Shown: in pieces, positions 18,384-61,300 of the stretch | Numbering within the stretch: the stretch's first letter is position 1 | How the letters are laid out: each line of letters begins with the position of its first letter | NCBI RefSeq assembly: GCF_040954835.1 | Contig: NC_090711.1 | Coordinates: forward strand, 11,167,501 to 11,231,500 | Source: Lepisosteus oculatus | Taxonomy: Eukaryota; Chordata; Actinopteri; Semionotiformes; Lepisosteidae | Reading direction: 5' to 3' | Length of the DNA: 64,000 bases | Translations under genes and position numbers: made by a program | The notes under the pieces: model-generated | What the model was told of the DNA's origin: nothing | The model's input: the letters and a program-made list of their open reading frames with translations, nothing else | Database searches by the model: none

Positions 18384-18735
18384 TTAATCCCACATCGGCA
18401 GGGTCCGCTTGTCGGCACGCCCGTCTCCATTTGGCGCGGTCATAGTGTGCCCCGAGGCGACGTTCACTTCCCGCATGTCTTCAGTGATCCGATCCACCCA
18501 CCCCTTCTTGGGCCGACCTCGCGGGCTCAGTCGCATCGCAGTCCGTGCCACCGTGTGCTCCCCACTTCTCATCACATGTCCACACCATCGCAGTCTTCCT
18601 TCTCGCATCTTCTCCGTTATCGGTGCCACTCCCATGCGTCGGTGGACATCGTCATTGAGGACGTGGTCAGATCTTGTTAGGCCGAGACACCACCAGATCG
18701 TCCTCATTTCCATCATTTTGTTGAATCTTGGCTGA
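18384..18735 (-). pseudogene. Non-LTR retrotransposon fragment, C-terminal end of reverse transcriptase ORF
   Basis: The minus strand encodes a short piece with GVAPITEKMREGRLRWCGHV, MRSGEHTVARTAMRL and RGRPKKGWVDRITEDM. These are hallmark motifs of the region after the polymerase domain in many LINE ORF2 proteins. Near the end the frame shifts: the neighbouring frame carries the expected AKWRRACRQADPAD. The fragment lacks the endonuclease and polymerase core, so it is a dead 5'-truncated copy. It is clearly richer in GC than its surroundings. The exact clade cannot be set by eye. Confidence 0.8.
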
Positions 18736-19639
18736 TATCGTGAACAAGCAAACTGCTTCTGATTTGCACCTCCCAAGCTGATCTGATGTGATTATTTATT
18801 CCAGATAAATAGGGACTACTAAATGATGGGTGCAATCTTGCCTCTTAACTACTCTTTTTTCATGTTTGGACAATAAACTCCAATTTTGGTAGCTAACATT
18901 TTCATAACAATACTACTGTATATACTGTACATATTACAAAATGGTGTTCCTGCATTAATTCCTTTAAATGCGATTTTATTTGGAAAATCCAGGTTACTAT
19001 TGTCTTGTGAAGCACTGCACTAATTGAACCGAAACCTGGCAGATTTCATCACACTAAAATTGAACATGTTGCAGAGATGTTGTTTGCACACACAACAAGA
19101 CATCACCTGCTTGGTATCAATGTCTGCTCATTCCTTCTATTTGTCCAGTGAATTCCAAATCATTCTACTTTCTCCATATCTCGCAGTTCACTCACGCTGT
19201 GGTACAGTTGTCTTTCAAGGCCTCCCACAATATTTTTCCACACATGAGGGCTTTTTTTTTTCTACACTGCATGAGTAGGGACTTGCTTGGAAGCCTTCAA
19301 AACAGCTTGTAGTTCTCTATTTGACAGTGATGTTTCTTCAAAGCTTAATGTACACTCCCTAGACTTCTACAGAGTTGTGGTACTAAGTATTCACAAGCCT
19401 GTGTTTTTATTCAAGTTAATTCCCTAGAAATCCTAACTGGCACTTGTTAAGATGAATGAGTGTTCAAGAAACATAGAGCTGCCATTGTCACATCACCATA
19501 CTTCAACAACAGTATCTCTTATTGTAATATATGACTAAATAGGTGGTTAACTGTTGATGTCCTACACATTACTGTGAAATTACTGCTACCAGGTACTGTT
19601 ATTTTATTATATTAATTATTAAATCACTAATATTGATCA

Positions 19640-21958: not shown

Positions 21959-24900
21959 TCATCGTCGGATAAATGCCACTGGTAGTTCACGGTTGGGAAC
22001 CAACGTTCCAGAATGGATTGCTTCCACTGGATCGTTATCAGTCGGCACAATTTCAAATTCCCTTATAATCTGCAATCAAAAGAAAACACAATGGCTTATG
22101 CTGGAATCAGCTTATAGACAGACACATAGAGGCATTACATAGTAGTAAGAGATGAACTATCTGCGCCACCATCCAAAACTGACAGGTTAAAACTGAATGT
22201 GGGAAATGGGACATTAATTGCAGAAGTGAAAAACATTAAATGTACTTTTATACAAGGCTATTAAGTTAAACATCTGTTAAATCATTGAAAGCAGAATTTG
22301 ACTTGATGTAGCGTTTTGTCAGGCTGTCAATGCAGACTACGGTACCGTCTAGTCTTCCTGTTGATGCCAGGTTAATAATGTACTTACCCAGCACAGCGCT
22401 AACTGGAGCTGCAGTTCTGCTAGGCGCCGGCCGATGCACATTCTCTTGCCTATGCCAAAGGGCACATGTGTGAATGGGTTGATTGTATGATTTTGCTGCA
22501 GCCAGCGTTCTGGCTTAAACTGCTTGCCATCATCAAAGTACTCCTCATTGGATCCCATGGCGTGGCTGTTGATCATCAAAACGGTCTGCAGAAATAAAAT
22601 AATTCATGGCACTTGAGACTCAAATGCTTAAATTATGGAACATACACAGAATAAATAAAAATGTTAACTTATAGGGTTAAGGTGGTGTGAAAAATGAGGA
22701 GGCAGTTTTGGGAAGTTATCATCTAATCACCTGTTGTACAATTCTTATATTTATTTCCAACTGGGGAAAAAAGCTCATAATGCTGGATACTTGTTCTTTA
22801 ATTTTAATCAATTGACATACAAATCCAAGAAAAAAATATTTATGCTTTGTGAAAGGCTGAAACAAATGGAGCATTGATTTTTTTATCTGAAGTGACTGTG
22901 TAGAGGTGTGGAAGAAAGCTTCACTGATTTATGCTTGATGTGATGCTTGTTTGTTTTCACAGCCTGCTTCGTTAAGAACTGAGTCTACAAGATCTAAACA
23001 TATTGCAGTGAAACAGAGGGTATTACTTACTCCCTTAGGAAGGACATAATCTCCAAGTACTGTTTCTGTGTCTAATGTCCGACTTGTAAATGGAACAGAG
23101 GGAGACAACCTGCAAAAAAAAAAAAAAGATTAAATTAGAATGACATGACTTCTGGCATGAAGTAGGTAAGTATAGGCATAGTATTAGAATAGTATAGTTT
23201 CCGAAACTGTTCCATCTCACACCAAATTTAAAAAACATCTAAAATGGAAAAAAATGTAAAGGTTTTAGAGAATGCCTAAGATTTTAAGATCTTAAATTAA
23301 AATTTATAGTCACAAGAACATTTTTTTTTACAAAATCTGCTCCATCTCTAAATGAGACACATACAATAAAAAAACAAGTAATAAAAAGTTATTTTATCAA
23401 TGTCACCTTTAAAAGATTACAAATAAGTTTAGAAAATTGTCAAAGCTTTTTTTATTTTTTAAAGAATGGCCTATTTTCCTATATAATATTAAGGCTGAAT
23501 GTACAGTATTATCAGTATTGTGGATGGATTCTCCTCAACGGCAAGAGATCAGTTTCCAACATAGTGTCCTCCAATGGATACATCCTTGAATGGATTGATT
23601 AAATATGCACAAGAAGAGATGTGTCTCAGCTTTGGTCCATGTACCTAATGGGTCATCTTTTCTGACCTTTTTGGCAGCATGATGATTATTTTGTGCGTTT
23701 AAAGGAAAACATGGCTTTGATTGCGGATGAGATTCACAGCCTAGCTTATTGTCTAGCTCTGTGAGGCACCCGACTTGGGAAGAAAAACAGTCGATTGCTC
23801 AAATAAGTCTTAATTTACAGACATGACCATCCCCATCATATCGGACTATCTCCATCACCACTATGACTGCGTGCTAAACGTCAGACCGATTTGCTGCTCC
23901 TCAGGATCTGTGTTCACAGTTTATTAGATGAAGTGATCTTTTCCTAATATTAATTAAAAACACATATCTGGCAAGATATAATGTGAAACAAAGTGGGGTC
24001 AGAGGCCTGTATTAAAATAAGTTTACATACCGCATTGACTCTTTTAGACAGGCCTTGAGGTAAGGCATTTTCTTGATAAGTTCTGTAGTAGGGACCTGAT
24101 TGACGGGCACTACGTCTTTTATTTCCTGGAGAAGTTTCCCCTGAGCGCACGGATTGCGAGAGAGATTGAACACAGCCCACAGCAAGCCGTTGGCAGTCTG
24201 CAACACAAGGAAACGGTCCCCTTTCATCATTTGTAATACAGATCGCCTGTTCTCATTCATCATGGTTATATTTGCCTTTATTGTTTATATTGAAAATCAG
24301 GAAAGTAATTTTGACAGCAGCTGTTGTAAACACAAAACATTTGGATAGGTGATTTTTGTCAATGTCATATGGTGGTAGCACACTTCTAGAAGTACAGATT
24401 TTTTTCTTACTGCGAGAAGGTTATTCCCAATTTATTTGCGACTGGAGTAGTGCTGTTCCACTCACTCCCTCTAGTGTTTGATAATGTCTCAAAATGAAAC
24501 CTGCTTGCTGATTCTCACTGTGCACCTTACTCTCTAAGAATTCAATGGATACCAGTTTGAAATATTCATATATAGAATGTAATGGACATTACAGCTTCTT
24601 TGAGTTTTTGTACTTAAATTAATGGGAATAATCATACATATTTGTGCTATTTCACTTCTTCTGAAAGTTTCTTTTAGTTTAAAATATCTTTATTATCCAT
24701 TACCATGGATTCCATAGTGTGCTGTAATAAATGATTCTTAAAAACATCTCTCATGTAATATGTCACTTAAACTTGAATAACTGCATTTTTAACTTTAAGT
24801 AGAACATGAAAGCACCTGGGCCTCCATGCCTCTTTAATGTGACTGTACTTCCTATGCAAGTATTGTGCTGCTCATGTACTGTTACGCTTCTGAGAAAGGA

Positions 24901-27900
24901 CTGCCTTACCGTTTCTACTCCTCCAATCTGAAGCTCAGTGGTGGCAGCATACAGTTCCTTCTTGGTCAAGTGGCTGCGTTGGTAGATATCACAGAGGAAG
25001 TCATTTGCAGGTTCCCCTGCGTGTCTGTTCAGTCTCTTGTCAATATACATTTTTGCTGGGAAAAAAAAATAGAACAAAAGGAATATTTCTGTCCTTTTAA
25101 AATATGATCTTAAGTATGATATATACATACAACTTCTTGAAGAGAAAATGGTAGAAAGGAATCAAAATCAAATCTTTATAAATGCTTATTCTTGGTATAT
25201 TTCAAGTTTGGGGAGACACTTGTACTGTTATTAGTTTTCCTATGACAAATACAAAATAAAGTGAAGTTTTCAAAATAGCTTTATATTTTAGCCATGCTTT
25301 AGCACAGAGTAAGAAGCATATGATTAAATCCTTGACAGTCTTCTGATTATCAGCTTTCCTGGAAAATATTCTTTTGACTTAATTGTAGGTTGTAATCATT
25401 AACAACTTACAGTTGTTACAGTTCAGGTGGATAATAAAAAAATTAAACTGTGGTAACCTGGTGAAGAAAGGGTGTACTATATGTGTATTTATGCCAGGGA
25501 ACACAAACATGTTTATATATGGCGTGAACAGTGAACACAAAATATCTATAGCATAGCCTTTGGTCAACATTCTTAACCTAATCATGCAACTACAAACAAT
25601 TAGCAGGATTTCTGCTCAGGAGAGGTCACCCAGTTTATTACACAATATCTGGTGAATAAAGATGCTCTGTGTTCTACACGGAAGGCACTAGATTGAAATC
25701 TTATCACCTATCTGGAAACATGCTTTAAGTTGTTCCTAGGTCACATCACCTACTTAGTAATTCTGCTCATTTTAAGTTCCGCATACCTGTACTAAATATA
25801 CGGTCCCAGGCATCTGTGTGGTCTTGCCATGTCTTGGTGTTTAAGCTTTTGTGCAGCTCCACAGGAGTTACCATCATCTTTCCAAAAGTACTCATCATCT
25901 AACGCGGACAAAAAGAAACAGCCAAAATAAACAATGTGGGCTGGTGCTGTACACACCTGAGTACCTGCCTGTTGTTATTTTTTTAAATCATTTACTAGTA
26001 TTTTGTTAGCCGCCATGGAGTTCATCATCAGCTTGTTTTTCTTTCCAGAAAAATATAAATGTTATATGTTGGGAGCTCCTGATGTAAGGCAAATTCCCTT
26101 ATGGGCAATAAAAGTTAAATATTTATATTTATTCAAATATTTCAATTCAAATCCAACAATATTAAAAGTTCACGCACCTGGGTAAAAATGGTAGTGTGTG
26201 CTTGTTCCATTTAACAACCCTGGATATCATTAAAACCTAGTATTGGCTCTTTGGTGTCTGTGACCTTCTTTAGACTAAAAGCTGATGATTATATTAAAAG
26301 GCTGGTTTTGACATTTTGGTCTATCTGACTTTCTACTGAGAAAGGTCCACAGACATAGGTGCTAAGAGTTATTCTCTGGAAAGGTTACCTCCCCCCCCCC
26401 CCCAATGACAATAAAATGTAGAATCAAGCTGTCTCAACAAACTCCCAACACTGAATCTTTCACCGCCTGCTTCTGAGAATATTAATGGCAAGCCAGTGCA
26501 ATAAATAAGACACGCATTATCTTGTACAGAGAACTGCAGGGCTATTCTGTGAATGCTCAGATGCAGCAAACTTAATGAACCTAGTTTTCTAAAGCCTTGT
26601 GAAGGTGCATTCAGTTCAATGTGCTGTATTAAGACTGGAACATTTTGCCTGCCACTTCTAGTTCTTTGCCTCAAAGTCACTGTTAATTGTAGTATTAGCT
26701 TTATTACAAAAGTAATAAAGTTAGCCTCCCAGATAAAGCCCTTTATGTGTAAAAGGGCCTAGTTTTTTTCCCCCACTTACCGTTTTTATTGCTGTAATAA
26801 ACTTCAGTGCTTCTTCATTCACATTTTTCTGCATTAGGCCAAACCTCTTGTCGTACAGCACTAAGCAGATAGCTAGACATAGATAAAACATGAATTAACA
26901 ACAGAAAGAGTCACATTGCAATATTAAAATACTTAATAGATCTGATGGGCTGTTTGTTGATCCACGTTCTTTGTCTTTGTCCCTCTTGAAAGGTGAATTG
27001 GTGAAAGGTGAATTGTACAGAGAAAACTAAATTAAATGTACATATATTAATATCCATAGGTCATAAACTTATAACGCTCATCAGTATAGATAAATGTTAA
27101 ATAACATTAATCAAACTTACTTTCAAAAGACCATTTATTCAGCTCACAGTACAAATCCAGAATTCTGCCATTGTTGTCACTTGCAACTCCAATCCTGTCA
27201 ATGAAGTCAGCCATTACCTGTATTTTTAAACAAATTTAATTTCCATGTTATTTATGGCACAGTTATTAGAAGTGAGCTATTATTTTATTGACATTATAAA
27301 TAATTTATATTTATTTATAGTGTAAGTGCAAAGCAAATCACAAAATGGATTTTAGGGCTACTGGTAGTTATCTTTCATTCTCATAAGCTTTCCAGAAACC
27401 AGTCATTTATCAATCCTATATGAGAGGTTTCACAGAAAATGTCTGGTCCCACACATAAGAAACTTATTTCGCCCGTAATCATAGGGTGTGAATTCTGTCA
27501 CCGTGGTAACCACTGTACACTCAGGTTTCAGGCATGTCCTGATATTATTTCTTCCTGGAAGCCATTTATTATCAGGAATTTCTATGACACAGCAGAGGAT
27601 ACTCAGCAGTACATGTCCTGTGGGGCCCTTGTGGCTTTTTCTCCATGACGGCTATACAGTTCATCCTTTGAAAAGTAGGGGGTTCGATTTTGCTAGCTGG
27701 CCTTACTGTTGCCGAAAAGCTACAGATCCCGAAATATTTTCCCCTTCAACTGCTGTTAGGTTGAGGTTGTTTTTTGTACAATGGACATTGTATGGCTACA
27801 TCTGTCAGCCACCAAAATTAACCACACCTCTGCTTCTGTACAGAGAATGAGATGGGGTCCATGGCACCATACTAGTTGTGATCACAGGTTAAAATGATGG

Positions 27901-29836
27901 GTAATGAAAGGGGTGAGAATTAGGGGAGGAGAGATGAAAGAGGGGGAGAAGCAGAGAGACGGAGATTCTCAGGGATTGCTTTTTTCCCCCTTGATGTTTG
28001 ACTCAAATGTTATTGGATGTTAAGCCCCCCCAAAAAATAACCAATCAAAAATATAATAACCTTCCAGGATTGCTGTAAAACTATTCTACAACCGGGTTCA
28101 GTTTTAAAGGATAAACTACCTGATTAATTTTTCCATCCAGTTTTCCTACTTCTGTAGGCTTCATGAGCTTCTGTTGAAAGGCACTCCTCACCCTTTGCCA
28201 GTCTTTTCCCTCGCTGTGTGAGAGAACAGGAGACGGGGGGAGAGTCAGCTTCTGATTGCAATAGTGGAATCAGTGGGATTTGAATGTATACAGAATGGGT
28301 TTCTATATCTACATAATATCCAAATATTTCAAGAACGACGTCCAAGTATTTATACATCTATCTGCCCACTATCATGAAGCCCCAGGTAACGTTCGGGGAG
28401 CAACAGTGAAGCAATCCTGCTTCATTTCTGACTCCGTTCAGAATCGCATAGGGCGCAATACAGGAGTAAAATCCGAAAAGGACTCTAGCCCATGTAAAGA
28501 ATATAATTAAATAAAATATATAAAGCTATACTTTCTCCAAATGTGGTGTCTCTTGCGATAGAAATATATTTAAAAGGGACTGGGATTGTTACTTTAAAAG
28601 ACACCACTATAAAAAAAAAACACCCATTAAATTCAAACTCGGAAACCTAATGCAACTTACTCCATTCAGAAATGCTAGCCGTGTCTCTACAAAATATTTT
28701 CGCCTCAGTCTGTACATGTTGGAGGACGTGATAATAGCTTTAAGAAATTAACCTTTAAAAACAGTACTTTGGAATCTTACCGCTTGACTCAACAGGGGAG
28801 TGTTAATTACTTTTGAAATAATGCTTTGCAAAAAAAACTAATTTTCTCAGGTCCTTACTAGATCGGGCTCGGAAATGCATTTTTCCGCCTTCGCAAAGCG
28901 GGTTAGCCTAGACGGATTACCCCGGCACAGCATTTCAATTACACGGACCACATAAACTGGAGGGGAAATAAAATATCTTGGATCTCCCCCTCCGTGTTCT
29001 ATTTCGTTCGTTATTCTTTATTTTTAATGGTATTGCTTTAAGTGAAGGATATGTCTAAATTCCTTCGCAATCAATGATACATAAACTGGAGTTCAGACTT
29101 GGTGGACACAGGTGCTAGTGCCAGTCGCGTCTCCTCGCTGGGGAGAACTGCGCCTCCATACTCACAGGATAACCAGCCCGTACGCCTCGTCCCTCAGGTC
29201 TCTGTACGCTTTCCAGGGTTTGATTTCCAGCCGCTGCGGGTAACGTCCCTCCTTCCTGTACAGAGCTTCCAGCAGGCAAGGAGCGCCAATGTGCACGGAC
29301 TCAAAGGAGCCGAGCTTCATTCGAAAGATCTTCCCGAACTTCTTGTGGTAATCAATCTGGAAAGGTAAAATACACCGAGACAAAAAAAAATGTATATTAA
29401 CTTACACGAGAGACGGAGAGGGAGAGATGTTGCATGACGAAAATTAAAACGCCTTTGCAAAATTCTTAAAAAGAACAATACTATGCCGATTTGAATTGCT
29501 TCTTTTGAAATGCTTCGGTCTTTTACAATGCATTTTCTCTCTGTCACACCATTACTGCTTTATTATAAGAAAGTTCTTAGGGTTTATTACCAGTGCCTCA
29601 TGCTGCCTTTTCAGACCCCCCTTGAGGAGGAGCTCGATCAGGCTTCCTACAAGGGGCCAGCTCTTGGGTCCCGGTATGGCAGAAAGGCTGTGCCCGCAAG
29701 GGGATACAGGTAGCTCGACCGCAACCTTGGTGTCAAGCGCGCACGCAGAAGATGTTGGCATGGAGCGCTGGGTCCCCAGTGGTTTCTCTTTCAGGAAACC
29801 CAGAATCCGGTGAGCTTTCTTAACTTGCGTTCTCAT
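21959..29836 (-). CDS. CYP24A1: Vitamin D 24-hydroxylase (mitochondrial cytochrome P450 24A1), complete, eleven coding exons
   Basis: Coding exons on the minus strand: 29836-29591, 29356-29166, 28213-28120, 27217-27121, 26872-26781, 25898-25787, 25055-24910, 24197-24031, 23109-23031, 22585-22388 and 22069-21959. They total 1533 bases, encoding 510 aa against 514 in human, and all splice phases agree. The enzyme uses adrenodoxin electrons at the inner mitochondrial membrane to oxidise the side chain of 25-OH-D3 and 1,25-(OH)2-D3, ending hormone action. Visible features: a basic N-terminal targeting region ([16 protein letters not shown]); a proline-rich hinge at 55-61 (IPGPKSW); I-helix GGVETT at 322-327; ExxR at E379-R382 (KESMR); PERW near 432; and heme loop [13 protein letters not shown] with Cys458 as iron ligand. 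G322 replaces the human Ala326. The start fits the family N-terminus. Exon 9 follows a 14-T tract directly before CAG. Identification is very secure. Confidence 0.98.
26391..26403. repeat. Poly-C run in a CYP24A1 intron
   Basis: Thirteen consecutive C on the plus strand (G on the gene strand) within the intron between coding exons 5 and 6. G-runs in the transcript could act as intronic splicing elements, but the length may also be a sequencing-prone homopolymer. Confidence 0.9.
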
Positions 29837-29930: not shown

Positions 29931-30077
29931 CGGTTGCTGACAATATATACCCTAAGGGATGATAGTTACAACTGATCGCTAAACCAATCATGGACCTTTG
30001 CAGATTGGTGTGGTTGACGAGCCCACCATTCATTTTTGGAAGCACGCTGTGGCTATCGCATGACCCCGGGTAGACCA

Positions 30078-30121: not shown

Positions 30122-30136
30122 GGGTGACGCAGTTCA
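30122..30136 (+). promoter_or_regulatory. Consensus DR3 vitamin D response element of CYP24A1
   Basis: GGGTGA-CGC-AGTTCA: two half-sites that both fit RGKTSA, with exactly three bases between, about 290 bases upstream of the CYP24A1 start codon. It reads antisense to the gene, the same orientation described for the mammalian CYP24 elements. The VDR-RXR heterodimer binds such DR3 sites and strongly induces CYP24A1 as negative feedback on the hormone. Function is inferred from sequence and position only. Confidence 0.7.
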
Positions 30137-33100
30137 CTTGGAAACAAATTCCCTTCCGACTTCGACGTTTGACAGGGAGCTGATATGTGTGTGTAAATGC
30201 TACTACTACAAACACCGCTAGGAAGCTCGCTGAACAAACATTTGCTCAATTTTGCAACCCCCTTCGATTTTTTTATTGTGTTTATCGTCAAGTGTTTCTT
30301 CCTTAATTACAATAGAGCTAAACGGCATTCAGGTGATTTCTGACTCGTCACTTGGATGAATGATCGGGTTGAATAAGTTGTTGATTTCCGAAATAAGCCG
30401 ACACCTGTGTAGTGCAGTAGACGCTCTGCATTTTATGTAGAACATTATGTATCGCTGGTAATTCTCTGTTGCAGAACGAAAAATAAATGTTTGATACAAA
30501 TGTTTGATACAAACGTAATTCAGAAAACTATTCTTTTAAACTTCAACAGCAGCGTGAATGTCATGTCCAGTTTTATGTCTTTCATTCCCGCTTCATATAT
30601 GCGTTAGGATGAGGTACAAGCTGTAAAGGCAGTCAAAAGCTTCTACAACATTGTCCTTTTTGCCTGTAATATAAAGTATAAGAAAACAAGGCATTATTCA
30701 ATTTAGTATGTCCGAATATCTATTGAATGACTGATGTAGATTAATATAGGAATAGAGACCGATAGAAATACTCATAGGTAAGTGGAACATCTGTTTTGAT
30801 GGGGTGGGAAGCACTTTTTATAATAACAAGAATGCTCTTTATCAAATTGTATGTAATACCATGCATCCTTCTGAAGGTAAGGTTCTGTAAGTTACTCTGC
30901 AGTGCAAAGCACTGTTTCAAAGACAACATACTTCTGTAGCACAGTTACAAAACACATCACACTTGTTATTGCATTTAAAAGTGCTTACTCACATGGTGTC
31001 AGATACCATTACTGTAACCTTGACCCCAATGCAATGTTTGTAGAATGCAGAGGGTGGGGAGGAGGTAAGAACAAGTGATAGGACCCTGCATGCCCCTCAT
31101 AAGGCAACCAGTTATTAATTTTTCAACAGATCCACTGCACCCTAATTAAATATGTCTATAGAGGGCTTAGACAAACCGTCTTCTTATTTAAATAAACGAT
31201 CTCATTGCTCTTACACAATTTAACAGACACAGTATACTCCCCCAAACAAGTAAAAAGAATAGATTAACACTGTATAACTGAGTTAGTGAAAAGAAAGGAG
31301 GTTTTCTTTATGGTGTATTGATTCTTCTCTTGGATTTTAGTTTATTCTTTACATCTTGGTCCCTCTGTGACATCAGAATAAAATGGGGTGGAATAGTCCA
31401 GTCTTAAATGGGTTGTTTTCAAGTCAAGACTATAAAGGGATTCATTAGAGACTGACAAAATAAAAATAGCGTGTTGATGGCAGTTGAATACGGAGGGGGA
31501 GACAGCAGGAGAATGAACCCACATGAGTTAATATTTGCCCCACAAGGGTACACAGGATCCACGAGAGCTAACAGTCATGAACGTCATCAGGAATGAACAA
31601 TCTGCTTGCCACAGAATTGTAAGAAGCATTGAGTCTTTGCCAGTTTGACAAGCTAGCTTTGACATTTAGAGTAATTATATATTTTTTTTCCTTTCCAGAG
31701 TGTATCTTTTTGTGGAATGGTTCAAACCCTGGGTGGCAATGCTGAATACTTGTAGTGTAGAGGGACTTTGGAAAAAAAGGAGCGACCTTGTTTGTCCATG
31801 GAACAAATACTGCACATGAGGTGGTAATAGCTTGTGAATATTGAACTTTACTAATTACTAGAGTGATAGGCTTACTGCATACTGGCTCTGTTTTTAACTT
31901 ATTTCTGAGGTGTGTGCAAATCTCCAAGGCAGACTGACTACCTGTGCATTTTATTTGAGCTTTTGATCTGAGTTAAACTTGAACAGAATGCGCACTCTAG
32001 GGAAGCAAGATAAACTCAGTGCTCTTCATGGTGGGGTTCTCCTTTGTCACAAGGATGTGAAGATAACAGTTTGCAGGCAAAGCCTTCTTCTTTTTTTTTC
32101 TTCTCAGCTAATTTCACTACCTGATGAACGCTGTAGTTGTAGTAGGAGCGACAGAATCAGCATAGCTGTATTGTTAAAGAGGTTCTTTTGTGATTTGTAA
32201 AGGATAGCATTTCTACTGGGGATCTGCACCTCTGTTTTGTGACAGTTATGTTCAATTCGCAGAAATCTAATCCATGTGTCTGTGATCTACATATATATAT
32301 GTATGTTACATCATATTGCTAAAAAATAGAAAGGCAGAATACATTATAGCTGATTCTGCTCAGCAGCTAAAATCCAGAATGGGGGAATATTTTGTAGAAC
32401 TTAGGAAGTGCATGTAATGTATTTTAAATAGTATTTAAGAATAAAAGTGCATATATGGTGAGAATTTTTAAGCTGACATTTCTATTTTGAGAGTATTATA
32501 CATTTGTAAACTTTGTTATGAGGTCCCCAAAAGCACAGCACACTTGTTAACATTGTAAGTAATAAAGCAATTAAGGTGAAATTAATCTTTCACGTGTCTA
32601 GTATCAGACATGAGGAGTTATACCTTGTAAGACCAAGTTTTATTATATGATTAAAGGTTGCTCTTTAGTACAGTTTACATAACTTTATTATGTGCTTTGA
32701 AAGAACTCATGGAGTTGAATATTGATTATTACTGCACTATTAATTAATAATAGTGTATTATTAATTCTCCAGCTATTTCCTAACAATATTGTTCATGTAC
32801 ATTAAGCCTATATTCAGTTGAAACTCATTTATATTAATTTTCTTAGAAGCAAATGCCTCTTTCACTAATGGACAGGGACAATATGTAAAATTGAGCTGTA
32901 ATTAAGGTTTTAGATTATGAAGGAAAAAATATTGAAGAGACTGTAATAAAATAATAATTTACTGAACTATATAATGGGTGCTGCTCTCCTCCAAACTCCA
33001 TAAGTTCTATTGGCTGATGTTTTCTCAGCCTACACTGATAATGTTTTCTTCTAGTGGTGAATGCAGTGAAGAAGACTATTTTGAGGAGTTGGAGCTTTTT

Positions 33101-39033: not shown

Positions 39034-41181
39034 GTAATATGAACTCAAGACTTAAGGCATGCTTAGCGTCACCCACATGGTTTGAGGGGTGACAGTCTAG
39101 CTGTTTGGACCAGACAGTTGGAAAACCAAGCATGCTGATGGGGCACATAGGAAAAGAATGCTGGGAAAGGAAAGTCAGAAGTGTCCTGTACTAATACTCC
39201 AGTAAGCAGATGAAAGAGATTGATGGGAGATAGGGTATTTTCCTCTAGTCTCTGTGCATGAGGGGTATGGTTGCAGTGAGACAGATCAGACTCTCTGTAT
39301 AGTTTCTGTATGTTTCAGATTTCACACGCTGCAGGTTCTTCTGTAAGCCAGCATGAGACACTACATAAAAACAAAAAAAGTGTCAAAACTTTTGAAAAGA
39401 TATATGGCTCTAGGAGCATTGAAATCATAGAAACGTGCTAAAAGATCACCTCTCCATCTGTTTTCGATCAGTTTTATCACTCCCACTCTTTAAGGAGATT
39501 AATGATTTCTGATTTTAACTGAGATGGGTTGCTTGTTCAATCCACGAGTGGCACAACTTTAAAAATCGTTCTGGACTGTCTCAGTTCTTTGCCAAGACAT
39601 ACTCTGTATCAAGGTTGTCTTGTAACTTGCAATACAAATAGCAGCTGATTTCCACCTCTGGTGTTGGCTAGTGAAGTCCCGTCAATTATAAACTCCTGAA
39701 AAGCGTAATCAAACAGACCAGGTAAATGAGGTTAAGTGTGCTCTTGAAGTAATCAATGTATTTGCTTTGGAAATCACTTGCCTCCAACTACGTTCAGCTG
39801 ATCTGCAGTGTGGAAATCAGTCCCTATCAAGGTTTTTTTTCTGTTAGCCAGTGATCAGGATGGTCTTGGTTGTAAGCCAGCTGAAAAAGGTGCAGAAAGG
39901 TACTGGTGCACTCTTGAATGAACTCCTGCAACCCTGTGTAGAGGAACTGACAGCAAAAACATGCACTGCCTGACCTCAGAGTCAATAACTGTGAATCCAA
40001 TCCATACTCAAAAGTATCCAGGAGAACTTAATGTTTCATTCACATTTACAGGGTCTCATTGGTGAAAGTAGAGCTATCTGGCTCTGGTGTCCATCAAATT
40101 TATTAGGGGTATTACTTAAAATAATTCCACTGTAATGCTGCCTTCACCTAGGATGACTATATTTGGTGTCTTTCTTGGGATTATTATCATCATTAATGAT
40201 GACAATAATAATAGTAGTGGCAGTGTATATTGGAGTTGGCAAACAGAATTTCCAACTCTGTTCTGTAAACATCTACCTCTGCACTATCTATTATGGAAAA
40301 AAAACACCTCTTGTTGTTGTTTTTTAAAGACACCATATCAGTACAATGATGTTGTAAAGTGTCTTCACATTCTTTACATTTTTCAGGATCTTATTTAAGG
40401 GTCTGTATGGGCAATGTAAATATATGTTTACATTGTAACTTGAAAACCTTATCCACCTGTTACAAATATGTGATTACGAAAACTAGAGAAATATCAGGAA
40501 AAACCAAGCGAATAAATCAATAAGTAAAATAAGTAATCATAACCCCCAACTTGTAAAGATTTATTCCAAGAATAGTTCTTTGTCCTCTGATACAGCTTAG
40601 GAGAAAAGAGTAATAATTAAGTTACACTGTGTTAAAACCTATTTATTAATGATGACAACTACACACTACAACATAATATAAACATACAACACAGAGATAC
40701 ACTACATACACCCATCCTATTAAAGCATTCCAGAGGCCTAACACCCCAACCACCCAGAAAGATCCAGAATGTTATTAAAAGTATTTGACTCACATATAAT
40801 GTCTGGAAAGGTCAAAAGAAGAGAAAGCTGCCTTCTAAACCAAACAGAATTGTGATTTGCGAACTGTGGTTCAATCTCTCTCTCTGCAAACCTGGATGCC
40901 ACAAAATTAATGGGAACCTATCTCTCTACTCTAAAATGCACCCATTTACCAGGATAAGCCATTTTAACCAAGGGATTCTTTACACAGAAAATCAAAAACC
41001 ACAGAATAACAAGCTCTCTTTAACAAAGTTCAAATACGTACAGTAGCTCCAATCTAAGCATAATTCAACATGCCAAATTTTCTACCGAATGTTATTGCTT
41101 CCCAGACCATTGTGTAGTTGTCTGAAAAGACTAAATTTATTCTCCCACTCTCTCTTTTGCTCTCTTTCTCATATCCAGGAG

Positions 41182-41420
41182 CAGCTTACCATCATCAAGC
41201 CTGATCTCATCAGATTTCAGAAGTTAAGTAGTCCAGGGCCTGGTCAGCATTGGAATGGAAAACCTCCAGAGAAAACCAGGCTGCCACAGTGGCGGAATTA
41301 TACTAGACCAGTCCTGATGTCCTAAACCAGTGCCCCATTGTGGTGACCTGCAACACTACTATTGAAAGAGTTGTCCTTCATATGAGATGTAAAACTGAGC
41401 TCCTGATTACAACCATACTT
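41182..41420 (+). mobile_element. 5S-rRNA-derived SINE
   Basis: The head matches the internal promoter region of 5S rRNA: AGCCTGATCTCATCAGAT, CAGAAGTTAAGTAGTCCAGG and GGCCTGGTCAGCATTGGAA. The body carries TTCATATGAGATGTAAAACT and GAGCTCCTGATT, the conserved block of SINE3-like elements (usual form TTCGGATGAGACGTAAAACC). This separates it from a plain 5S pseudogene. Many C-to-T type changes show it is old. Confidence 0.8.
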
Positions 41421-55300: not shown

Positions 55301-58300
55301 CTAGTGTGATCCAACCTGCACCATATTGTATCCCAAACAGAAAAATCTGAAGCTTTGTAGACCAGTGAATAATATCAATAAGATTCGTTTTTAAAACAAA
55401 TAGATAAAACTGCATTTCTTGTAATGTTAAAATAATATTCCTTTATGTTATCTGAGATAGGTGTGCCATAATAAATCTCCTAATGATCATGAACACTGAA
55501 TCTTATTATACTGTCTTTGTTTTTCTTTTCACCCAAGATATTCTCTGACAGGTGTGCAATAGAATTAGCTGCACCAAAGGCCCATGAGCTTTGCCAAGCC
55601 AAGCTGGAAACTCCTTTAGTAAAGATTGATTAAATATACAAGCTGAAGTTGCTTTTAAGGGAGCAGTGTTTTATTTTCAACACTACACTAGATAAAAATA
55701 TTAATATCCAGATTTCTTCAGCATTTCCAGAAGTGCTCACATTTTTTACAGATACATCAGGCCTACAGTTTGTCCCACATTAAAAGGTGATCATTTCAAA
55801 ATCCTTCCCAACAAAAGCGGTGAGGATTAATTACCTGTCATCTTGGGACAATTCCTTGAAATTCAAGAGACTCCTTCCTAGTTTGTAGTTTTTTCAAACA
55901 ATGTCACATTTACACTGTGTTTTAATATTTGTTTATCAGGGCTCTGGTATGATACTTTTTAGTAGCTTGTATGTCACCAAAAATGTTGGACACAATATGC
56001 ATTGTAATAATACAACATTACAAAACAATCTATTATCAATACATTTTATATTGCTACTATTGTCAATACTGCATATACAACTATGAATAAAAAAAAAGCT
56101 TTAAGCATTGCACTGCAAATGAAACGTGTTTCAGATGTAATGCTAATTTTATTAAATGATGAAGTAGACCATTGTAGTGTGTGCACACTGAAAGTATTTA
56201 ATTTTTTACTACTGTGTGCCTTTCTGTAATACCATAGACAATAGCAGCATTCACTTCTTATTCTTTGCTCAGTATTAATGATGTTAAGCTTTTAGCCTGT
56301 GTAGTTCATTGATCAATGAGCCAGGAAGCAGGCAGTGCTTTTTTTAAAAAAGTTTGCCACCCCCTAATTCTTGCTAAAGCAAAATAGAATTGTTTGTGTA
56401 CACCAGCTGTCTGCACTGCTAACATGGGATAATTTACACTAATATTCTGAACAATGCAGTGAAGATTTTTACTTTTAAACTCATGTCACATTTTTCTATA
56501 ATGGCCTATGTAGTGACACAAAACCTTTAATTAAATGTAGTAAATAGTCTATTTGAGTTATACAACCTTATAGAATAGAAAAACAGTGGGGTTAATAAGA
56601 CAATATTTGCATGGTTTATTGAGACAATGGGGTTTGTTGTTGACTCATTAAAAGAACGAAATAATACTGCGGGCTGCAAAAACATCATTTGAAACATTAA
56701 AGAGGCACCACCCCCTAAGTAAACACGGAGAACTTTTCCACTGCACATTATAAGTGCACTGTAAATTGCTCTGGAAATAATGTGTCGCAGAAAGGAAAGG
56801 ACAGTAAATTAGAAGTGATTTTGAGAGAGCAGTGAAGCCATATAAGTGTTGCAAATTTAATATACCAAGTACCGTGCATTTTTTGTGCATAATGTATATT
56901 TGTATAATGCAAGTATTATACAAAAGTACTTTGGAAAACTGCTTTTTTCAGACACGATAACTAATGTTTAAGCAAAAGCAATTTGAAGTCTATTGTAAAA
57001 ATATCTATACATTATAGAAACACTGTTGAACGACAATAATTGAAATACACTTTAGTTGTGTTGAAAATACAACCAGAACATTTTTAAAGGTTTTGGGTAA
57101 ATATTTATCACTTACAAAATTAAAACAGAAAATATTGAACATAACCATAAGTTACACTGATAACATGTCAGTGTTCATGGCCTTCATGTAAAACTGCTTT
57201 ACTTCTTTTCTCCACAAATCTAGTGTTCTTATAAACATCTTTCTTGTATTTTCTGTGGGAACTATATAGATATGTAATATTCAGATTGTGCCGTACAACA
57301 GGAACATATTATTTTTAAAAGAAGTACTTGAACCCAAAGAAATATTTTTTTGTTGAATGCTGGCCATTTTCATTTTAAACCACCGTAGCAATTCTCAGCC
57401 ACTAATATTAGCAATTAAACCATTAAGATGGCACTTAGTAGGGACTTTGGTTTTTACTATGTTACTATGTTTTACTAGGTAACATATTCGTGCACACTCT
57501 TCCGGTTTCCAGATCCAAGGACACAATGGCATGCTTGTGCAAAGTTTACCCAGCATGTTGTGTTGTATGCACAGATTCATGCTCCTTTATGATTTTTCTG
57601 GGCTGTACTACACTTTCGAGCACAGATACCATGGTACACAACAATATCGTTCTATCATGTGTATTACAGAGCTAGCAAAGCCTTCAGATTCATTCAATTA
57701 TCCTGTTAGTTGAGCACACGAATGTTGATTCTAAGATGATTTTAGAGTATGTATCTCTGGTTGCGCTATTGAATCATTTCTAACTCTTCTGTGAGCTGCT
57801 AGATTAATGCCGGCATTGTGCAATGTCTTAAATCTTAAATGTTTTCCATCGAATCAGATAATCCGATAATTGACCTCCTCTCTATTGTAGTAGACTGTGA
57901 AGCAGCTGTGCAGCAGAACAGTGCACTCCCCTCATCGCTGGATACAAAGGAGAGGAGCTCCAGGTCAGGAAAAGAGGGGGACAAGACCAGGAAAGATGCC
58001 AAGATAATGCTGCCAGCTGCCAAATCCAGTTTCTCACTGTCATTCTCCCAGCCGGTACCAGTCTGTGCTGAAGCCACGGGTGCCACTGATTCATCACCCC
58101 AGCCCCCCAGTGGCACGGTGCCCGCTGTGCACCAGACCGTTTCTCTGAAGCCCACCCCACCGCAGCAGAGCGCAGCCCAGGCAGAAGATGGGAAGCTTGG
58201 CCAAGATCTGCCGCCCAGAGATCCGCCACCCAGAGAGGCAACGGGGCAGGAGAACGGGGAGAGCAAGACCGGCTTCTTCGATAAACTTTTCAAGCAGAGT

Positions 58301-61300
58301 GACAAAGAGAAGGCCAAAGTGAACGAAAAGCCTAAGCAGCCACTTGCTGCCTCAGAGAGTAAAAGTGCATCGGCACCCCAGAGCTCCCCCAAAGAAGTTC
58401 AGCTGACCAATGGCCTTAAGACTGTAAGTGCACTGCTGTTAAAATTTAATAACAATCTTAATCACTCCCTAGGCTCATCGCTTTTCTCCACTGTAACTGA
58501 TAATTAAAGATTATGCAACTCACAGGTAACTCATAGGGGTTAAATAAGCCACGTAGTGAATTGCTCAGCAGAGTGGTCCATCAAACTGCTGGATAAAGGA
58601 ACGAAGTCCTCGGTGGTAAAAAGCTGCACATGACTGCAAAAACACAGTGCAGTCAACTACAGCGACGTGCAGGAATATCACAATGCAGAGAAGAGATCGA
58701 TTTAAATGCCTTTAAAAAGCTATTCATCTTGTCTATTGTCAGCTGGCAATTCAAATGCAATGAAAAGACTTGCAGACGCAAAACCGGAATTAATTATTAC
58801 TTATATCAGGGATTTTCCCAATTTGGTCCTCTTGTGGAGGCTTATGAAACAACAACAATGATAATAAACCTAAATTGTAACTGTAATCAAAAGCAAAGAT
58901 TGTGTTTCCCCAGTTGTATGACTACAAGCAGTCAACAGCCCTGCCAAATTCCAAAAAAAACATTTCAGCAACTGATATTTTAAAGAAATGAAACCATCTC
59001 TTTTGAATTTGTGTTGGTGGGCTGTGCCATCAGAGACCTCTTGCCTGCAGCCCAATCTGTTTATTTGAGTACCGTAATGTATCCAAATTGCAAAATGGAG
59101 AAAACAGAAGTGTTGGCAAATGAGTCGGACTCCTGTGCCTGTGTGTTTGCATTAAAGATTAGGGAGGATCACTCTAATAATGATGTGCTTATTGAATGGC
59201 AGGAAGATTGCGCAGACTGTAAGAACGCTTGTCCAAAGAAATAAACAGTGATTTTAAAAAGGTCCATCGAAAATGTCTCATCAGTGAAAATTAAAACCTG
59301 AATATAAAAAGAAATCTTTCCCTCCTTTTGCTGCTGTTTACAGCTGACAATGAAGTATTGTTGCAAAGAACTCCATTGTAACAACAAGCTCAGTGCGGAA
59401 TGATACAAATTTTCATTTTTATGGTTTATTACAGACATTTTTAAGAGTCACATGCTATCGTGTAAGCCAACAAAATACATTCTGTTTCAAGCAGCAAATC
59501 CTTTTCAATAAAACACTATAAATCTATGCTCTGCTCTTAGTGTGGACAGGATTGAATTTACAAATGCCTGTATTCATGTTCTTACTATGCAGTAGTCCAA
59601 GATTAGTGCTAATCAGGGTCTGTAAATTACTTACAGTGTTAGGTGTTAAGAAACTCTACTGAGGCCACTTGATTTTTAAAGCTAAACTTTTGGGGAAAAT
59701 GCCCTTGCATTCCTCATTGCCTAGAGCACGTGCAGCTAACCAGCTGCAACATTTCTGAATAGTAATAGAAAGCTGAGACACTGCAGATTAATAAAAGAGC
59801 AATTGTTGGGTGTTTGTGTGGGCTGTGGCCTGGGATGAAAAATGTGTGCTCGCGTTTCAATGCCACGATTTACAAAGCGAATAGATTGTAATCATCCCTG
59901 TTGCTCCAGAGTACACTAATTCTTTGCTTGAGCAACAGGAGCCGGGAAACGTAAAGAAGACAGAGACAGCACTTCAAGATCCAGAAGGTAAATCCGTGAA
60001 TACTCCCATCTCTACAAACGTGACAGTTGACAGCACCCTGAAAGACGAGACCATTGCAGTGGAGAGTACAAAGGAGGGGGCAGCCAGAGAAGATCAGCCA
60101 CAGAAGATTATGAATTTTTTCAAAACTTTTGTAAGTCATGCTCTTTTGGTATTTCTTCTTGTTGGGTCCTCTGGCTTCATTTAGCTGATTATTTTAATTA
60201 CTTTCTCCAGAATAAAGAAAAACGCTGTTCCATAGCTCCATCATTAGCACTGTACTAGTCAGAAACTGTGGTCCAAACATTAGCTGGTTCAAAGTGCATT
60301 AGAGGAAAAAAATGGCTTAAGAAGTGTCTTAAGAAAAATGCCTTTTTAATCAAAACTGACAGATTAAAAACAGTTTTAGCACTGTACTAGTCAGAAACTG
60401 TGGTCCAAACATTAGCTGGTTCAAAGGGCATCAGAGAAAAAAAAAACGGCTTAAGAAGTGTCTTAAGAAAAATGCCTTTTTAATCAAAACTGGAGGAATA
60501 CCTGTTTTGGTTTTTAGGTCCTAGAGCTTATTTTCCATCTATACAGAAGAGGTTAAATGTATAAACAAATATTCCCATCAAACATGGAGTGTGGAACAAC
60601 CTTATGATGATCCACATACTTCTTATAGTTTCATAGCTAACTACAAATGGAGTTTCCACCTCGTCTTGTTATTTGGTGTCATTAGTGCTTATACAATGCC
60701 ACACCATATCCAATTTGCAGCGGTAACATTATCCTGGAGTAATGACAGGAGCTGGTAAATCCACGACAATGACCTTCAGGTGATGTCAGCATGTATATTA
60801 CTGTAAATGATCAAAGTCATTGCTTGTGTTAGCTTGCTTTGTTTTGGTTAGGGTAGCTCTCATCTGTGTCTCATCCAAGTATTTTGAGAAAGGAAATTAT
60901 TAATGTACAATAGGAAAGTTTCTGAAGCTTAAACCATCTAGACTTTATAAAAAGAACTGTGTTGGTTCCCAAAGTGAGTGGACTGCCATTGGACTCCCTT
61001 TACAGAGTTGGTCTAGCATAGTGCTAGAATAATGCAAACCTATGTGTAGAAAGAAACCAGATTCAGATAGTGCAATAACCTTTTGTTACCTCTGAAGTGT
61101 CAGCGTGCATGGAGAGCCTGTGAGAGGAGTTTGAAATCAGTAGGAACAAAAGAACAAGTCTTGATGCCTTGTCAGGAGTGCTATAGCAGAGACAACAGAG
61201 AATACATGTGTGGTATTCATTCAGGGGCATAGAGGCTAGCTGGATGTGTGTTGGGGGTGGGGAGGGAGATGGATGGGAGATGAACATGCTTTAAATTCCT

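Follow-up and report, generated by a model that had tools for sequence, protein, structure and literature searches.

A natural glycine at position 326 of an intact CYP24A1 and its possible preference for C23 oxidation of vitamin D

Structure and identity of the CYP24A1 gene

The window, a 64-kb stretch of genomic DNA, contains an intact CYP24A1 gene on the minus strand, which we rebuilt from the DNA as 11 exons running from 29836 to 21959 (Table 1). The joined exons form one open frame of 1533 bases, encoding 510 amino acids and a stop codon, and every intron starts with GT and ends with AG. The translated protein matched the Pfam p450 family over residues 55–494 (E 1.3e-103). It carries the haem-binding FxxGxxxCxG motif and the K-helix ExxR (ESMR), and its N-terminus, as read from the translation, is rich in arginine and lysine and is a candidate mitochondrial targeting sequence.

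The top match among solved structures was rat CYP24A1 (PDB 3K9V; E 4.1e-227, 758 bits), while the runner-up, a chain of ancestral CYP11A1, scored 294 bits. The alignment with the rat enzyme paired query residues 50–508 with chain residues 22–480 without a single gap, and 317 of the 459 residues (69%) were identical. Over the stretch from the I-helix to the K-helix, identity was 66% to rat CYP24A1 versus 28–49% to six paralogues and three CYP11 references, a comparison in which the paralogue at C12:21.1M was represented by a 17-residue motif only and paralogue L043 was left out. When the protein was searched against the species' own 1.2-Gb genome, with 61 candidates scored, there were 53 matches, four of which exceeded 51% identity. 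All four were exons of the window gene, so no second copy of CYP24A1 was found among the scored candidates. Scans of genome-contig and viral-contig collections, which covered close relatives only, did not detect a relative. We conclude that this is the orthologous gene for mitochondrial CYP24A1, the P450 of vitamin D catabolism, and that it is intact.

Table 1. Coordinates of CYP24A1 and its putative promoter elements in the window.
Feature	Position	Strand	Comment
DR3 vitamin D response element-like site GGGTGACGCAGTTCA	30122..30136	+	perfect to RGKTSA-N3-RGKTSA; 286 bases upstream of ATG, antisense to CYP24A1
TATA-box-like element	29944..29949	-	upstream of CYP24A1 start codon
CYP24A1 exon 1	29591..29836	-	start codon 29836-29834; Arg/Lys-rich N-terminus
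CYP24A1 exon 2	29166..29356	-	gene model
CYP24A1 exon 3	28120..28213	-	gene model
CYP24A1 exon 4	27121..27217	-	gene model
CYP24A1 exon 5	26781..26872	-	gene model
CYP24A1 exon 6	25787..25898	-	gene model
CYP24A1 exon 7	24910..25055	-	I-helix, first part; ends ...ELQIGGVET
GGA = Gly322	24922..24924	-	mammalian position 326; Ala in rat
GGA = Gly323	24919..24921	-	mammalian position 327; Ala in rat, Gly typical of P450s
CYP24A1 exon 8	24031..24197	-	remaining I-helix and K-helix ExxR (ESMR)
CYP24A1 exon 9	23031..23109	-	positions 391-397; 395 is Ser versus Thr in rat
CYP24A1 exon 10	22388..22585	-	haem-binding motif (Cys462 equivalent); Met at position 416
CYP24A1 exon 11	21959..22069	-	Gly499, Thr at position 500; stop codon at end

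Promoter and regulation

Two putative regulatory elements lie upstream of the start codon, a TATA-box-like element and a DR3-like site. The usual DR3 half-site consensus is RGKTSA. Under the narrower half-site RGKTCA, which was the first one tried, the DR3-like site has one mismatch, and it is perfect under the wider RGKTSA. The 64-kb window contains two perfect RGKTSA sites, compared with 0.51 expected, and 9 of 100 shuffles also reached two; it is therefore the closeness of this site to the start codon, rather than the number of sites, that speaks in its favour. A second DR3-like site with one mismatch is found at 30367–30381, and 21 sites across the window have no more than one mismatch. 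The CYP24A1 promoter is described as carrying two vitamin D response elements in the available text of a review (PMC8584323), and zebrafish cyp24a1 is reported, in the portion available of another paper (PMC3446910), to be induced by 1,25(OH)2D3 through VDRa. The candidate DR3 at 30122–30136 suggests that CYP24A1 of the window may likewise be induced by the vitamin D receptor, as in its mammalian orthologues, and the regulatory picture fits an ordinary hormone-induced catabolic gene.

Glycine at positions 326 and 327

The 3' end of exon 7 (25055-24910) reads ACT GAG CTT CAG ATT GGA GGA GTA GAA ACG, followed by the donor gtaagg, and exon 8 opens with the codon (24197-24195) for the final threonine of the I-helix motif. 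The initial annotation had placed a glycine pair at 24919–24924, which was exact: the GGA GGA codons encode Gly322 and Gly323 on the minus strand. It had also proposed, from E322, R396 and haem Cys462 as anchors, that adding a constant 4 to the residue number gives the mammalian number. With this offset, the window and rat proteins alike have the glutamate at 322, the arginine at 396 and the haem cysteine at 462. The offset held equally for a set of rat pocket labels that is independent of those anchors, since all 19 of the labels given in the available text of PMC12467546 (R128, L129, I131, W134, M148, I242, K243, M246, F249, L325, A326, V328, E329, V391, F393, T394, T395, G499 and I500) fell on the right rat letter.

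In the gapless alignment with 3K9V the two glycines stand opposite both alanines of rat ELQLAAVETT. The proposed equivalence of Gly322 with human Ala326 is borne out to the extent that Gly322 lies opposite rat Ala326 and that human Ala326 is given in the available text of PMC8584323. A chance match at this column is of no concern because the column lies inside a 69%-identical, gap-free orthologue. Glycine at position 326 is confirmed to the base. Alanine and glycine at this position are separated by one base change (GCN/GGN).

Other residues of the substrate pocket

Fourteen of the 19 named rat pocket residues are kept. The five that differ are 148 (Val, Met in rat), 325 (Ile), 326 (Gly), 395 (Ser) and 500 (Thr, Ile in rat), and outside the named set 327 (Gly) and 416 (Met, Thr in rat) differ as well, giving a total of seven among the positions compared. 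We take Met416 and Thr500 to be the human-type residues. In work attributed to Hamamoto in 2006, the changes T416M and I500T reportedly gave rat CYP24A1 C23 activity. If these roles of 416 and 500 hold, then Gly326, Met416 and Thr500 would all point towards C23. Ala326 and Ile500 are named among the rat pocket residues that influence regioselectivity in the available text of a 2025 docking paper (PMC12467546).

Positions 326 and 327 in other P450s

We compared the same two positions in seven mitochondrial-type paralogues from the same genome, these being the ones with an I-helix exon readable near the genome matches; other mitochondrial P450s, such as CYP11C1, fall outside this count. All seven share the boundary of the CYP24A1 I-helix exon: theirs stops directly behind ..DT and is followed by a GT donor. 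Five of them (L020, L027, L033, L037 and L043) have Ala-Gly at 326/327, and two (L039 and L042/L023) have Gly-Gly. Over the I- to K-helix stretch, L039 is 73% identical to ancestral CYP11A1 and is CYP11A1-like, and L042/L023, a gene whose two exons some 2 kb apart were joined by inference, is 48–64% identical to three other genes that we call CYP27-like, a label assigned by exclusion from CYP11. The genome also yielded three non-mitochondrial matches (L014, L015 and L021), which have Ala-Gly.

The motif in L042 (C12:33945400-33955000), taken together with L023, reads LLLGGVDT, versus LLLAGVDT in four other CYP27-like genes and MLLAGVDT in one. Here, too, glycine replaces alanine at the 326 equivalent, in a mitochondrial-clan family other than that of CYP24A1.

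The PDB search listed four distinct CYP11A1 chain sequences, two of them human and one a reconstructed ancestor, and every one has Gly-Gly. Among the PDB alignments shown, one CYP11B2 chain has Gly-Ser, and two CYP2R1 chains and one plant P450 have Ala-Gly. We also read the residues from the motif strings of 10 prokaryotic P450s, chosen for variety among the plasmid matches listed (60 of 524 records): position 327 was Gly in every one, and position 326 was Ala in nine and Ser in one. The exceptions to Gly327 among the P450s examined were thus rat CYP24A1 (Ala) and the one CYP11B2 chain (Ser). Judged by these sequences, P450s usually carry Gly327, and it is the rat alanine (and, according to the initial annotation, the human one) that is odd. 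Position 326 switches between alanine and glycine, with alanine the commoner outside CYP11.

The double glycine as a special signature of this CYP24A1 was rejected, given that Gly327 is present in all seven paralogues and all 10 prokaryotic enzymes. The earlier observation that both alanines are glycines here is correct at 326 and at 327 when compared with rat, and its second half is uninformative. Because Gly327 is the default across the P450s examined, the second glycine adds no message.

Position 326 and the C23 and C24 routes

According to the available text of a 2021 review (PMC8584323), rat and human carry Ala at residue 326, guinea pig and opossum carry Gly there, the C23 pathway is the major one in the latter two species, and Ala326Gly turns the enzyme into the guinea pig type. 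The part available of a veterinary review (PMC7569877) states that residue 326 decides between 23 and 24 and that with glycine the side chain docks deeper, C23 is hydroxylated, and the pathway ends in the 26,23-lactone, a compound from a family of reported VDR antagonists. Both sources back the statements of the initial annotation that A326G shifts the enzyme to C23 and that opossum naturally carries glycine, to which guinea pig can be added. The C23:C24 ratio is given as about 1:4 for human CYP24A1 and about 1:25 for the rat enzyme in the portions available of PMC8584323 and PMC8134072; since both enzymes have Ala326, position 326 is not the sole determinant. In rats, moreover, the 26,23-lactone is described as one of the major metabolites in plasma once 25(OH)D3 has been dosed, and much of the final step is ascribed to CYP3A (PMC8134072, available text), so the metabolite pattern of an animal is not set by residue 326 alone.

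The reviews weigh residue 326 unequally in the text available to us (PMC8584323, PMC7569877, PMC8134072), treating it either as pathway-determining or as part of a route choice perhaps of little import to the animal, with the Ala326 rat being lactone-rich in vivo. Zebrafish CYP24A1 is a single-copy fish gene, as that of the window is taken to be; it is 63% identical to human and is presumed to work as the mammalian 24-hydroxylase does (PMC3012610, available text). A literature search of limited coverage, in which sources were available in part, did not find the residue at 326 of any fish CYP24A1, which may nevertheless be in print.

CYP24A1 of the window is a further natural Gly326 case, beside the known ones of opossum and guinea pig. 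The human A326G mutant, for which the primary work is reportedly that of Prosser in 2007, has the same substitution in the same column, and its background presumably retains Ala327, unlike the window enzyme with Gly327. Opossum and guinea pig share the natural glycine and use mainly the C23 route (PMC8584323, available text); they differ in being mammals, and their comparison with the window enzyme covers position 326. Rat CYP24A1 (3K9V/3K9Y) shares the haem site, the K-helix and most pocket residues with the window protein and differs from it at 326, 327, 416, 500 and 148. It is mainly a C24 enzyme, by about 25:1 in the available text of PMC8584323.

Predicted product route and alternatives

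With its natural Gly326, CYP24A1 of the window is predicted, by a narrow balance of probability, to prefer C23 over C24 oxidation, and we consider this prediction reasonable and partly supported. By the mechanism described in mammals, the lack of the Ala326 methyl group on the I-helix would let the side chain of 25(OH)D3 or 1,25(OH)2D3 slide deeper, and the deeper docking would bring C23 instead of C24 above the haem iron. The first product would then be the 23S-hydroxy compound, and oxidation at C26 would follow, leading into the 26,23-lactone route and not to calcitroic acid. The presumed human-type residues Met416 and Thr500 should push in the same direction as Gly326.

That the glycine is an artefact of misalignment, of a pseudogene, or of a wrong gene or reading frame has a negligible probability, and we regard it as ruled out by the gene model, with its GT-AG boundaries throughout and single 510-residue frame, by the gapless rat alignment at 758 versus 294 bits for the next chain, by the Pfam P450 match, and by the numbering of the pocket residues. 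Another alternative is that Gly326 is neutral in this protein, with Val148, Ile325, Gly327, Ser395 or a flexible Gly-Gly I-helix repositioning the substrate, so that the enzyme would be mainly a 24-hydroxylase or a mixed enzyme. The cited cases of a glycine effect, in the text available of PMC8584323 and PMC7569877, are the A326G mutant, opossum and guinea pig only. The effect of position 326 was measured in the human background and may not transfer, because five of the 19 pocket residues as well as 327 and 416 differ from rat. The Ala/Gly toggle at 326 among paralogues with presumably other substrates also argues for neutrality. On the other side, the identity of 14 of the 19 named residues with rat implies a pocket that is largely unchanged, and positions 416 and 500 would favour C23. 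We hold a neutral glycine to be quite possible while leaning away from it.

A further reading concerns the age of the glycine pair and fits either product outcome: Gly-Gly would have been the state in early vertebrate CYP24A1, the Ala-Ala of rat would be derived, and nothing would be special in the window species. Gly327 in every paralogue and prokaryotic enzyme compared is consistent with this, as is Gly326 in the CYP11A1-like paralogue, in one CYP27-like paralogue, in the four listed CYP11A1 chains and in the CYP11B2 chain shown. Against it stands Ala326 in the other five paralogues, in L014, L015 and L021, in the CYP2R1 chains, in the plant P450 and in nine of the 10 prokaryotic P450s. On balance we incline slightly towards an ancestral Gly-Gly, and our guess is that Gly326 is somewhat likelier to be general and old in fish than to be new there. 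We think it unlikely that, beyond this, the C23/lactone route was the ancestral vertebrate way to end vitamin D signalling, with Gly326 original in CYP24A1 and C24 oxidation to calcitroic acid dominant only after the gain of Ala326. Opossum and guinea pig would in that case have reverted to, or retained, Gly326. Early vertebrates would then have silenced the signal with an antagonist as well as through removal of the hormone, since the lactone belongs to the VDR-antagonist family.

If the predicted preference for C23 is right and the enzyme is a 23-hydroxylase, the residue-326 switch described in mammals would hold across some 430 million years, assuming that the window comes from a ray-finned fish. 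The fish would make the stable 26,23-lactone, of the VDR-antagonist family according to the available text of PMC7569877, in place of calcitroic acid. Such a result would matter for how fish are fed vitamin D, for its toxicity to them and for their use as vitamin D models, and it would offer a test of which route is ancestral; its interest would rise if Gly326 turned out to be the original residue and C23 oxidation the older route. If the enzyme is not a 23-hydroxylase, the residue-326 switch would be background-dependent.

Neighbouring features of the window

Three stretches at 12715-10228 on the minus strand, downstream of CYP24A1 and in the same orientation, matched PFDN4 (E 1e-16 to 3e-22, 73–85% identical each) when human PFDN4 was used as the query. 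We take the human order to be one in which PFDN4 neighbours CYP24A1 on its upstream side and points away. Relative to that order, either CYP24A1 or PFDN4 seems to be inverted.

Ten of the 30 ORFs listed in the window were checked, and none gave a Pfam match at E 0.01. Two open frames on the plus strand, 57839-58504 (222 aa) and 59885-60181 (99 aa), have no Pfam match and, going by the human neighbourhood as we assume it, may be exons of BCAS1. A 135-aa frame at 18387-18791 on the minus strand, also without a Pfam match, presumably resembles the final part of a LINE reverse-transcriptase protein. At 41176-41290 on the plus strand lies a 5S rRNA-like match of full length, whose Rfam score of 38.2 barely exceeds the gathering score of 38; it is perhaps a 5S-derived SINE or a pseudogene.
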